From: Segatella baroniae DSM 16972 = JCM 13447
Lineage (GTDB): Bacteria > Bacteroidota > Bacteroidia > Bacteroidales > Bacteroidaceae
Reading direction: 5' to 3'
DNA: 64,000 nucleotides
Assembly (NCBI RefSeq): GCF_000426585.1
Contig: NZ_AUFQ01000004.1
Span: 62,001-126,000, forward strand
Shown in pieces: positions 30,854-33,107 of this stretch (positions are counted from its first letter, which is position 1; every line of letters begins with the position of its first letter). Position numbers and translations under genes: made by a program. The notes under the pieces are model-generated. The model had not been told where the DNA came from and ran no database searches. It was given only the letters and a program-made list of their open reading frames with translations.

Positions 30854-30926
30854 GATCCGCTAGCTCAGTCGGTAGAGCACAACACTTTTAATGTTGGGGT
30901 CATGGGTTCGAGCCCCATGCGGATCA
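30854..30926 (+). tRNA. tRNA-Lys (anticodon TTT)
   Basis: A 73-nt cloverleaf: acceptor stem GATCCGC/GCGGATC, D-arm GCTC/GAGC, anticodon stem CAACA/TGTTG with loop CTTTTAA (anticodon TTT), T-arm ATGGG/CCCAT with loop TTCGAGC, discriminator A. CCA is not encoded. Directly after it is a long terminator hairpin. Confidence 0.97.
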
Positions 30927-30930
30927 CGGA

Positions 30931-30976
30931 AAACGTGAAAGAGGACTTCGGTGACGAAGTCCTCTTTCACGTTTAT
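30931..30976. terminator. 20-bp perfect hairpin after tRNA-Lys
   Basis: AAACGTGAAAGAGGACTTCG (30931-30950) pairs perfectly with 30955-30974 around GTGA. It lies between the tRNA and the end of the minus-strand PqqD cassette and can terminate both. Confidence 0.8.
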
Positions 30977-31038: not shown

Positions 31039-31308
31039 TCATTCCATGACACCAGCCTCCTGCCACTCTGCCACAATGGCCTTTACATCGGCTTGGGCTT
31101 CCACGTCCGTCACTTCGTATTCCTCACAAAGCCTTTCCGACAGCGCCTCAACGGTGAAGTCACCCATCGCCACTGCCTGTTTCCACAACCATGCCGCCGT
31201 CTCATTCATAGCCAACAGCTTTCCGAAATTGATGGCGCCGAGGCCCTCGCCCACCACCACGTTCTCACCGCACACTTCGCGCAGCACAAATCCTTGCCTG
31301 ATTCTCAT
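31039..31308 (-). CDS. PqqD-like peptide-binding protein
   Basis: An 89-residue protein of the PqqD fold, used in peptide-modification pathways to bind a leader peptide and present it to a modifying enzyme. The ATG at 31308 begins MRIRQGFVLREVCGENVVVG; the hallmark MNETAAWLWKQ near residue 34 is followed by FTVEALSERLCEEYEV and a final amphipathic helix. It overlaps the peptidase gene by 4 bp. No radical SAM enzyme or cyclase lies nearby, so the partner enzyme is probably the kinase-like or peptidase-like protein of the same operon. Confidence 0.85.
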   Translation of the reverse strand: MRIRQGFVLREVCGENVVVGEGLGAINFGKLLAMNETAAWLWKQAVAMGDFTVEALSERLCEEYEVTDVEAQADVKAIVAEWQEAGVME

Positions 31309-31730
31309 AATCGTTTGTATATTGCCAATAAATATCTTCTTATGGGGCGTAGCCAGAACCACGTCCTTGCGGCCGACTTCCGCCACCTATTATATAAATA
31401 ATGTATCTCTCCCTTGCCATCCATCACGTGCGTCGCTATGGCCTTGACGGTTTCGAGGGTGCAGTGTTCCGTACCCACGATGTTGCCGTCTCCCATCAGT
31501 GTCACGCGATTTCCGTCAATGCGTATGATGCGATGTACAACCCAACGCCCCGGTGAAGCCCATGCCAGCACGACATCGCCGACTTGCAGCTGTCCGGGCT
31601 TCTGCAAGACGACACTCTCCCTGCCCCCGATGATAAACGGCAGCATGCTGGTGCCGTTCACGGGCAGCGTCACGCTCACGCCCTCGTCCACCAACCTGAC
31701 AGCTTCCTCTATGATCTTGTCGCCTGTCAT
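31305..31730 (-). CDS. Soluble S26B-like (SipW/ER-type) signal-peptidase homologue
   Basis: A 141-residue protein. NGTSMLPFI places a nucleophile Ser at about residue 28. WVVHRI at about 62-67 puts His where bacterial LepB has Lys, as in ER, archaeal and SipW signal peptidases, and MGDGN near 80 gives the conserved Asp. Unlike true signal peptidases I see no membrane anchor; the C-terminus is a basic amphipathic stretch (RTWFWLRPIRRYLLAIYKRL). It lies between the kinase-like and PqqD genes with 4-bp overlaps on both sides. A role in processing a cytoplasmic peptide or loosely membrane-associated substrate is inferred. Confidence 0.8.
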   Translation of the reverse strand: MTGDKIIEEAVRLVDEGVSVTLPVNGTSMLPFIIGGRESVVLQKPGQLQVGDVVLAWASPGRWVVHRIIRIDGNRVTLMGDGNIVGTEHCTLETVKAIATHVMDGKGEIHYLYNRWRKSAARTWFWLRPIRRYLLAIYKRL

Positions 31731-32581
31731 TGCGTGATGGTTCCGTTACACAATCTCGCCGCCGCCTCGTCGGGCAGACACTCCAGCTTCCATATGGGCA
31801 CGTTCGACGCCACCATGTTTTCCGTCCGATGCAGTCCGTCGGCGATACGTTTGTCCCAACGCTTGCCGCTGATACTCCCCATCAGAGCCGCATACGCATA
31901 GATGCCACGCAGACGTTGCGCCTTGTTGTATGCAGCCTGACTGAGTACGACGACAGCACCCAAGGGATGGCAGACGTTCCGATAGCATGGCGTCTTGCCA
32001 CTCCACGGCGAACCATACACGAAAATGGAGCCATCCCCACCGATACGCACCACGGGGTTGTCATCATTCACCAGCGCCGACCCCTCGATGTGCTTCAGCC
32101 ACAGACCAGCGTGGGTGCTTTTCCCCGTACCGCTCGGACCGAGGAACATATATCCCTTGCCCCTACAGCTCACCACTGCCGCATGGAAGAGTGCCGTCGC
32201 CTTGTCTGCCGTTGCCAAGGCATACATCACCATCAACGCATTATTGACGGCCAGCTCCATATAGCTGCCTGTCGTGACAAGCCGCCCCTCACGATAGTCA
32301 GCAGAACAGACGAGCCATCCTGCCGAAACGCCCTGCCAGACAAATTCAAACACGGCTTCCCCCGTAGCGGAATGTCCACATACGATTTCCTGACCATCAT
32401 CTTCCTGGCGCCAGTCGACCGCATAATCGGCGATCGCTCCACGGGCGATGTTCAGGGAAAATACAACATTCCCTTCATCGCAGCCAAACGGCCTGTAATT
32501 GTCCATCAGCGCAAAGCACTCCGCCTCGCCGCTGACACAGAAGCGATGTCCCGCCACCTCGTAATGTCTTGTCTCTTTCAT
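31727..32581 (-). CDS. HPr-kinase-like / PEPCK-fold ATP-binding protein
   Basis: A 284-residue protein. The C-terminal half matches the HPr kinase/phosphorylase C-terminal fold: LFHAAVVSCRGKGYMFLGPS, then Walker A GPSGTGKST at residues 148-156, HAGLWLKH, and ALVNDDNPVVRI near 172, which supplies the conserved Asp residues. The N-terminal 120 residues are a separate beta-rich domain unlike the HprK N-domain. There is no HPr/PTS gene nearby. Such 'HprK-related' proteins accompany PqqD-like proteins in peptide-modification clusters (one class phosphorylates lasso peptides), so a peptide kinase role is plausible but unproven. Confidence 0.8.
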   Translation of the reverse strand: MKETRHYEVAGHRFCVSGEAECFALMDNYRPFGCDEGNVVFSLNIARGAIADYAVDWRQEDDGQEIVCGHSATGEAVFEFVWQGVSAGWLVCSADYREGRLVTTGSYMELAVNNALMVMYALATADKATALFHAAVVSCRGKGYMFLGPSGTGKSTHAGLWLKHIEGSALVNDDNPVVRIGGDGSIFVYGSPWSGKTPCYRNVCHPLGAVVVLSQAAYNKAQRLRGIYAYAALMGSISGKRWDKRIADGLHRTENMVASNVPIWKLECLPDEAAARLCNGTITQ

Positions 32582-32591
32582 CCTGGTATGT

Positions 32592-32708
32592 CTATTCGTG
32601 ATGATTTCCTTCCATCGTTGCGGCCCTCGGTTTGGCGGCGGTTGGCTTCAGCCGGCTGTCTGCCCGCCATTCCACCCTACTGCCACGGGTGTGCCGGGGC
32701 TGCAACAT
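32592..32708 (-). CDS. Candidate 38-residue peptide ahead of the HprK-like gene
   Basis: A short minus-strand frame: ATG at 32708, TAG at 32592-32594. It begins MLQPRHTRGSRVEWRADSRL and ends EGNHHE. It is very basic (nine Arg and Lys) with five Ser/Thr. It starts about 12 nt after a -7 box and stops 10 nt before the kinase-like ATG, the position expected for a precursor or leader peptide of the cassette. High local GC can keep frames open by chance, and I recognise no family. Confidence 0.3.
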   Translation of the reverse strand: MLQPRHTRGSRVEWRADSRLKPTAAKPRAATMEGNHHE

Positions 32709-32720
32709 TGAAAGTCGAGA

Positions 32721-32728
32721 CAAATTTA
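32721..32728 (-). promoter_or_regulatory. -7 box of the HprK-like/S26B/PqqD cassette
   Basis: Minus-strand TAAATTTG (complement of 32721-32728). The -33 element is poor: the nearest TTG-like words are off the ideal spacing. Confidence 0.5.
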
Positions 32729-32850: not shown

Positions 32851-32997
32851 GTACGCAAGAAACGCGCCGTACCGCCGCACCAAACCCCTCCGTAAGTTCA
32901 TCACCGAACACGTAGTGGAAAAGCGGCAAGAGGGACTGGACACGTCATGCCGACCAAAGGGCATGACAAAATGATGCGACGGCAATTCCACTGCTCT

Positions 32998-33107
32998 CCA
33001 AAAGCTGCCCCTTGAGAAACCAAAAGCTGCCCTTTGAGAATCTAAACACAGCCCTTTGGCAATGCAAAAGCTGCCCTTTCAGCTCTTGAAAGGGCAGCTT
33101 TCGGTGC
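32998..33107. repeat. Five 22-nt units (cluster C)
   Basis: Units start at 32998, 33020, 33042, 33064 and 33086. The first, second and fourth share CAAAAGCTGCCC(C/T)TT and the third has CACAGCCCTTT in phase. The fifth is the inverted form (GAAAGGGCAGCTTTC), so units 4 and 5 form a hairpin. Confidence 0.85.

Follow-up and report, generated by a model that had tools for sequence, protein, structure and literature searches.

A conserved kinase-like, peptidase-like and PqqD-family gene block in Segatella baroniae and a dispersed family of candidate peptide substrates

What do three tightly overlapping genes of Segatella baroniae DSM 16972 act upon? They lie on the minus strand of a 64,000-nt stretch of contig NZ_AUFQ01000004.1, the whole of which is here called the window, and we label their products P1 (kinase-like), P2 (S26B-like peptidase) and P3 (PqqD-family recognition element, RRE, of the kind found in systems for ribosomally synthesised and post-translationally modified peptides, RiPPs). 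A preliminary description had read them as a minimal peptide maturation or tailoring unit and named no substrate. We consider it probable that P1-P2-P3 are the cytoplasmic core of a system which matures and exports peptides in the manner of RiPPs, acting in trans on many small precursors. The evidence computed here consists of the gene block, the conservation of its active sites, the RRE fold, a peptide family and the selection on it, the co-occurrence of that family with the cassette and the pairing of its genes with neighbours. The cassette is laid out as follows.

31727..32581, minus strand: P1, HprK/PEPCK-type kinase-like protein, 284 aa, with Walker A at 148-156, H133 and D173-D174
31305..31730, minus strand: P2, predicted S24/S26-fold peptidase with S26B (Sec11)-type S28, H66 and D81, 141 aa, with basic C-terminal helices
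31039..31308, minus strand: P3, PqqD-family RRE, 89 aa, with three strands and three helices
31727..31730, minus strand: ATGA overlap of P1 and P2, exactly 4 bp
31305..31308, minus strand: ATGA overlap of P2 and P3, exactly 4 bp

Both junctions are thus the 4-bp overlaps first described, ATGA in each case, and GPSGTGKST stands at residues 148-156 of P1 where a Walker A motif had been placed. The range then given, 31039-32708, starts correctly at the end of P3, but 32708 lies upstream of the P1 start at 32581.

A scan of genome contigs with P1 led to 64 fetched loci (L numbers), mostly titled Prevotella, Prevotellaceae, Bacteroidaceae or Bacteroidales, together with two Fibrobacter metagenome-assembled genomes (MAGs). 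P1, P2 and P3 stand in this order in 58/64 loci, the exceptions being L049, L051, L052, L055, L060 and L081; in L060 and L081 the contig ends inside the cassette block. At the level of the genus, P1 (E <= 1e-10) is present in 180/199 genomes. The cassette is therefore not a chance arrangement, and the three genes co-occur frequently, where rarity would have told against a single peptide system. The unit is not minimal, however. An ATP-binding cassette (ABC) exporter of ~540 aa lies beside P3 in 56/64 loci (all save L033, L049, L051, L055, L060, L075, L077 and L081), an NTP_transf_5-like gene precedes P1 in six (L033, L034, L035, L036, L045 and L049), and some loci add a radical S-adenosylmethionine (SAM) enzyme; the exporter and NTP_transf_5 families were checked by profile on L038 and L036 only. 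In L052, P1 is oriented divergently from P2-P3-ABC, an arrangement that allows its expression separately from that of the peptidase and the RRE.

Candidate substrates came from clustering of small open reading frames (ORFs) round the cassettes, which yielded peptides such as MKKKIYEKPSMKVVLLQHKCQLLAGS-GGERGIPGYDDDYGYMPGWGKDGGNHLT (L035), with the leader consensus K-Y-x-K-P-x-M-x-V...L-(A/V)-G-S and acidic cores. Other small ORFs common to many loci were set aside, most of them coming down to shared synteny or to antisense frames within a single region. The family is unnamed in Pfam and NCBIfam: the eight peptides that seeded our model A1, four of them from genomes G013 and G031, gave no NCBIfam match and one chance-level Pfam match (E 0.14). 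A larger model, A2, comprises 31 leaders, 27 from genomes with a window-type P1 (at least 270 bits), of which four are from S. baroniae itself. One pattern, written after the family had been seen, fits 64 of 68 distinct peptides. Among these 64 the spacing from Y to S is 21 residues in 56, 20 in seven and 22 in one; the second position after the proline is M, F, V or I in 62, and positions -3 to -1 read AGS, AAS or VGS in 53. The cores have a median length of 20.5 aa, a mean net charge of -3.7, 20% D+E and 4% K+R; serine or threonine occurs in 56/64 and cysteine in one. These peptides are genuine genes under selection, the ratio of non-synonymous to synonymous polymorphism (pN/pS) being 0.22-0.47 in 12 of the 13 pairs compared; the thirteenth pair is identical and so uninformative.

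How might the three proteins handle such precursors? P3 exceeds the cut-off of the PqqD family PF05402 (50.9 against 23.4 bits), as expected of the PqqD-like protein of 89 residues first noted. Its AlphaFold2 (AF2) model (predicted local distance difference test score, pLDDT, 92.5) has strands at 7-12, 15-20 and 31-34 and helices at 36-48, 53-63 and 68-85. The best six Foldseek matches are lasso B1-leader complexes (5v1u, 6jx3, 5v1v), followed by PqqD 5sxy; the best solved structures are TbiB1 and TfuB1 with bound leaders, and TfuB1 is the best match of the P3 profile among Protein Data Bank (PDB) sequences (E 2.5e-5). The peptide-binding fold that the earlier idea of one peptide system called for is thus predicted. 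Lasso leaders use YxxPxL, bound by B1 proteins (PMC10368454, available text), and YxxP is among the recognition motifs listed in the available part of a structure-based RRE survey. Fold and leader motif both fit a B1-type RRE, and P3 would hold the precursor leader through its Y-x-x-P-x-M/F/V-x-V segment. The two features by which RiPP systems are recognised, a leader-and-core precursor made by the ribosome and an RRE, are both present; that the one recognises the other we infer.

P1 matches HprK/PEPCK-type models weakly: PF07475 at 15.6 bits (cut-off 33.3), the HPr kinase family TIGR00679 at 17.5 (240), SynChlorMet ScmC at 19.5 (125), HprK-rel-A at 16.9 (200) and HprK-rel-B at 19.3 (200). H133, S150-GTGKST and D173-D174 are each conserved at 0.99-1.00 in 94 sequences including the query, and the H, GxxGxGKS and DD residues of the HPr-type peptide kinases BsfK and PadeK are, compared by eye, present in P1. 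In the available text of PMC10368454, the lasso peptide kinase BsfK shows the same H / G..G.GKS / DD pattern, acts on a YxxPxL precursor and is stimulated by its RRE partner. By this analogy P1 would modify the bound precursor, most likely by phosphorylation.

In P2, S28, H66 and D81 are invariant (1.00 in 99 sequences). The closest folds to its AF2 model (pLDDT 83) are LexA/UmuD (Foldseek E 2.2e-4 for the LexA type), SipA being weaker and further down, and a membrane anchor is not obvious. P2 has the predicted S24/S26 fold and the Ser-His-Asp residues, and its scores with curated families lie below their cut-offs (Peptidase_S24, PF00717, 20.8 against 23.3 bits; archaeal signal peptidase, TIGR02228, 24.3 against 51.85). 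Fold and residues suggest that P2 is most likely the leader peptidase. Signal peptidases obey a small-residue rule at the cut site; since (A/V)-G-S fits this rule, P2 would take off the leader most likely at this small-residue motif, (A/V)-G/A-S. The leader could instead be removed by another peptidase, such as a C39 domain at the GS motif, while P2 acts on the partner protein or regulates. C39 transporters can indeed cut after GS, as with cytolysin (PMC10885120, available text), and the fold closest to P2 is that of the self-cleaving LexA/UmuD. However, the exporter tested (L038) has no peptidase domain and other cassette exporters are of like length; in L163 an S24-like, P2-like domain (18.5 bits, below the 23.3 cut-off) is fused to the ABC exporter, and P2 is fused to P1 in L087 and L091, whose sequences were read, and by frame length in L088, L089 and L093. 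Given also the invariance of S28, H66 and D81, we hold another leader peptidase to be unlikely and prefer P2 itself. Finally, the ABC exporter would move the acidic, ~20-residue mature peptide out of the cytoplasm. The conserved block, the P1-P2 fusions, the RRE fold and the candidate substrate family all favour the one peptide system that had been proposed.

If the peptides are the substrates, do they accompany the cassette? Sixty further stretches, taken from relatives in the genus and order, include a divergent branch in which P3 is mostly ~40% identical and the exporter is not beside the triad. There the triad follows a sigma-70-like gene (by eye rpoD) and then a protein of 130-220 aa. This protein, secreted by eye, lies between the sigma-70-like gene and P1 in 29 loci (L131-L160); the L131 copy had no Pfam or NCBIfam match. 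In a search of 23 genomes, A1 gave four matches in S. baroniae and 2-20 in 12/12 other window-type genomes. Five divergent-branch genomes gave 0, 0, 0, 1 and 4, and four genomes lacking a P3 gene gave 0, 0, 0 and 2. The S. baroniae matches rest on A1, which has no seeds from that genome (E 1.9e-5 to 8.9e-4). Over 199 genus genomes, A2 matched 45/47 with a window-type P1 (mean 6.3, median 5), 69/133 with a divergent P1 (mean 1.15) and 6/19 without P1 (mean 0.9). The first two groups differ with p 4e-17 and the last two with p 0.15, values that serve as a guide only because genomes of one genus are not independent and p-values are overstated. The most independent test of co-occurrence is the comparison at order level. 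In 198 genomes, 21 of which have any P1 (E <= 1e-10), A2 matched only S. baroniae and G262, a genome of another family with 15 matches, none of them a seed. G262 is also the only other order genome whose P1 score falls within the range of the window type (298.6 bits), and its cassette is one block, P3-ABC-NTP_transf_5-P1-P2. Thirteen of its 15 peptide places were fetched; ten are followed directly by a same-strand gene, a lipoprotein by eye, one peptide follows a large open frame, and two have no neighbour by the rule used.

At five distinct loci a peptide gene lies within 600 bp upstream of the operon (29-539 bp), against 0.09 expected from the genome-wide peptide density over the 83 loci in which P1 exceeds 200 bits (some from duplicate genomes, 75 being a rough distinct number); these five are seeds and the family was found that way, so the figure describes rather than tests. 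Four of the five are on the operon's strand and that of L041 is opposite. Peptide genes also have neighbours of another kind: for 48 of the 55 distinct peptides in the fetched stretches, a gene on the same strand that encodes at least 100 aa lies no more than 200 bp away, and in most cases no more than 60 bp. By a crude hydropathy and lipobox rule, 28 of the 34 partners with an intact N-terminus look secreted or lipid-anchored, compared with 38% of 459 controls taken from genes flanking the cassettes; a lipobox is found in 41% of partners versus 3.5% of controls. Partners typically take one of two forms: lipoproteins encoded immediately downstream of the peptide, or large proteins, often rich in repeats, encoded immediately upstream. 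None of ten partners searched against Pfam matched a fimbrillin, while one had Beta_helix_3 above its cut-off and one had a divergent InlB B-repeat; we therefore call them secreted proteins or lipoproteins, and fimbrillin-like by eye only. Peptide and partner genes are probably co-transcribed. Because the peptide gene usually adjoins that of a secreted or lipid-anchored protein, the peptide probably serves this partner.

Related triads also occur with radical SAM enzymes, found in the L122 and L160 loci (PF04055); L124 and L167 share a blastp cluster with L122, and the radical SAM-like protein of L051 is named by its likeness to that of L160. By sequence, L051 has a related triad whose arrangement is that of an ordinary RiPP cluster:

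L051, 609-1694: radical SAM-like protein
L051, 1738-1872: precursor
L051, 1891-2163: PqqD protein
L051, 2180-2671: S26-like protein
L051, 2675-3604: kinase-like protein

L122 and L124 combine radical SAM, a second PqqD and the triad with precursors bearing an FEKPQM leader. Across L122, L124 and L167, the radical SAM-like protein and second PqqD stand before P1 and the short, mostly Cys-rich precursors share this leader; their sequences make a new type of radical SAM RiPP cluster possible.

The triad might instead have a different substrate, either a single one or one with a housekeeping role, and the YxKP peptides would share lineages with the cassette and nothing more. In the divergent branch the triad has a fixed place after the sigma-70-like gene, without an exporter, and looks like a core function; about half of the genomes there have no A2 match, and G153 has peptides without a cassette. 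The independent match in G262, the fit of the leader to the RRE motif, the adjacency of peptide and cassette, and the radical SAM loci with related leaders all speak against this reading, which we judge quite unlikely.

S. baroniae itself encodes a single P1 and, above cut-off, a single PqqD protein. The cassette-linked exporter is absent from its genome, and an unlinked homologue on contig C2, which would probably serve for export here, is 66% and 62% identical to exporters of two divergent-branch genomes. Linkage is not needed for the two to occur together. In the 199 genus genomes (P1 at E <= 1e-10, exporter of either type at E <= 1e-100), 165 have both, 15 P1 only, five the exporter only and 14 neither (p 5.5e-10, to be read with the same caution), and in many of them P1 and exporter are unlinked; S. 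baroniae was counted as P1 only because its exporter match is split. With the triad on contig C4 and the exporter on C2, its six candidate peptides lie on C1, C8, C13, C15 and C22; four are A2 seeds and the other two score E 1e-4 and 1e-3. One peptide of this genome lies at C22:26041-26118. A short substrate frame beside the three genes, which the preliminary description had suggested seeking, was not found: neither small-ORF clustering nor profile search gave a peptide gene in the window, and the candidate substrates are mostly a dispersed family.

Could the window copy then be the non-working remnant of a larger cluster from which the exporter has been lost? In most close relatives the ABC exporter is retained, and in some the NTP_transf_5 gene, while the window triad adjoins neither and has no peptide gene in the window. 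Yet its overlapping frames and active sites are intact, and an unlinked exporter homologue and peptide candidates stand elsewhere in the same genome. A relic is very improbable, and a working core acting in trans is preferred. Finally, a lasso peptide system with its cyclase and B2 protease located elsewhere is suggested by the B1-like fold, YxxPx(L/M) leader, HPr-type kinase, NTP_transf_5 and exporter, all of which occur in lasso clusters, but is exceedingly improbable and membership was rejected, since the B2 family PF13471 is found in 0/12 genomes tested, S. baroniae included, and an S26-type peptidase fills the place of the protease.

The best reading is that the system shares parts with lasso biosynthesis but has an S26-type peptidase and no B2. 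Split-B lasso systems with a kinase (PadeB1/PadeK, BsfB1/BsfK) have the same discrete PqqD-like RRE of B1 fold, YxxPx(L/M) leader, HPr-kinase-like enzyme with H/GKS/DD, exporter and sometimes NTP_transf_5; unlike them, the present system has an S26B-type peptidase, scattered and numerous substrates and no B2 transglutaminase-like protease. No asparagine-synthetase-like cyclase was noticed beside the cassettes, though no profile search for a cyclase was made. Radical SAM RiPP clusters with PqqD resemble L051, L122, L124 and L160 in pairing a related triad with the enzyme, and L051, L122 and L124 also in a precursor with a related leader, whereas no radical SAM gene adjoins the S. baroniae triad. 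SynChlorMet (ScmC/ScmD) and HprK-rel-A/B cassettes likewise join an HprK-like to a PqqD-like protein; P1 is far below their cut-offs and the S26-type peptidase is extra here. In C39 peptidase-containing ABC exporters, which act on double-glycine leaders, leader removal is also coupled to the exporter and occurs at a small-residue site, but here the peptidase is of S24/S26 type and usually a separate protein, fused in L163 only. Sec11 uses Ser-His-Asp and the Ni-SOD maturation protease is soluble. With these and LexA, P2 shares its predicted fold and the layout of its presumed catalytic residues (it matches TIGR02754 weakly), and differs in being encoded with an RRE and a kinase-like protein.

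Several results weigh against the system proposed here. P1 and P2 fall below curated family cut-offs. Because the family was discovered next to cassettes and window-type genomes supply 27 of the 31 A2 rows, both the difference in counts and the proximity figure are biased. Most cassettes have no peptide gene nearby. G045, whose exporter is beside the triad (P1 43%), has no A1 match, and 64/133 divergent-cassette genomes have no A2 match; substrates there were either not found or have diverged leaders. The leader pattern gave at most three candidates near divergent cassettes (L155, L161, L163), and for this reason no second leader model was built. G153 (nine peptide matches) and G237 (two) have neither P1 nor exporter at our thresholds; for G153 either assembly gaps or another machine would account for this. 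At order level the next-best P1, in G371 (198.6 bits), comes with no peptide match. The L051 precursor scores 10.3 bits with A1, and those of L122, L124 and L167 17-18 bits with A2. Lastly, the C2 exporter is only 37-38% identical to the cassette-linked type.

Leader binding, phosphorylation, the cleavage site, export and a role with the partner protein are what we infer from sequences and models. Beyond this core, it is an evenly balanced proposition that Prevotella-type bacteria possess a new class of secreted peptides, in which one central machine, consisting of the lasso-type RRE, the kinase, the S26-type leader peptidase and the exporter, would process as many as a dozen scattered peptides or more. 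Each would be produced along with a surface lipoprotein or adhesin of its own and would act for that protein as a tag, ligand or assembly factor. A likely substrate family can now be named for a conserved gene block of these bacteria. The data suggest that RiPP leaders may be removed by an S24/S26-type enzyme, and they tie peptide maturation to surface proteins. Most of these precursors would escape mining methods that rely on finding one next to the enzymes. In the open-licence PMC literature, as far as its text was available, we found no paper in which PqqD, an HprK-like kinase and an S24/S26 peptidase are brought together for Bacteroidales. The accessible portions of three sources were similarly silent: S24, S26, LexA and signal peptidase have no text match in a review of the proteases that remove RiPP leaders (PMC10885120), a survey of Bacteroidales RiPPs has PqqD once, in its reference list, and the structure-based RRE survey has no match to Prevotella or Bacteroid-. 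Surveys that count RRE-containing clusters, for example PMC13289728 from its available text, may include members of this cassette.

Other features were noted round the cassettes. Those in MAGs labelled Fibrobacter (L049 and L084, P1 60% and 50% identical) reflect transfer or mis-binned contigs. A second tiny ORF family, alike over ~21-24 residues, lies 78-177 bp past the exporter in four fused P1-P2 loci:

L087, 11378-11452, plus strand: tiny ORF
L089, 11317-11382, minus strand: tiny ORF
L091, 5211-5276, plus strand: tiny ORF
L093, 5373-5528, minus strand: tiny ORF

In the window, the cassette is flanked by the following.

30854-30927: tRNA-Lys, beyond the hairpin after P3
30931..30974, strand ".": perfect 20-bp inverted repeat 3' of P3, folding -34.8 kcal/mol, z -8.6
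32721..32728, minus strand: TAAATTTG, weak candidate -7 box fitting the Bacteroides-type promoter

The 20-bp hairpin between P3 and tRNA-Lys is, by its sequence, a likely terminator; 30931-30974 is not among the terminators listed by a consensus terminator scan. Upstream of P1 no exact -33/-7 promoter pair was found and a sigma-70 promoter scan was uninformative; TAAATTTG was compared with what we take to be the Bacteroides-type consensus. Also upstream of P1, at 32997-33079 of the window, is a degenerate tandem repeat with a 22-bp unit, TCCAAAAGCTGCCCTTTGAGAA, in 3.8 copies.

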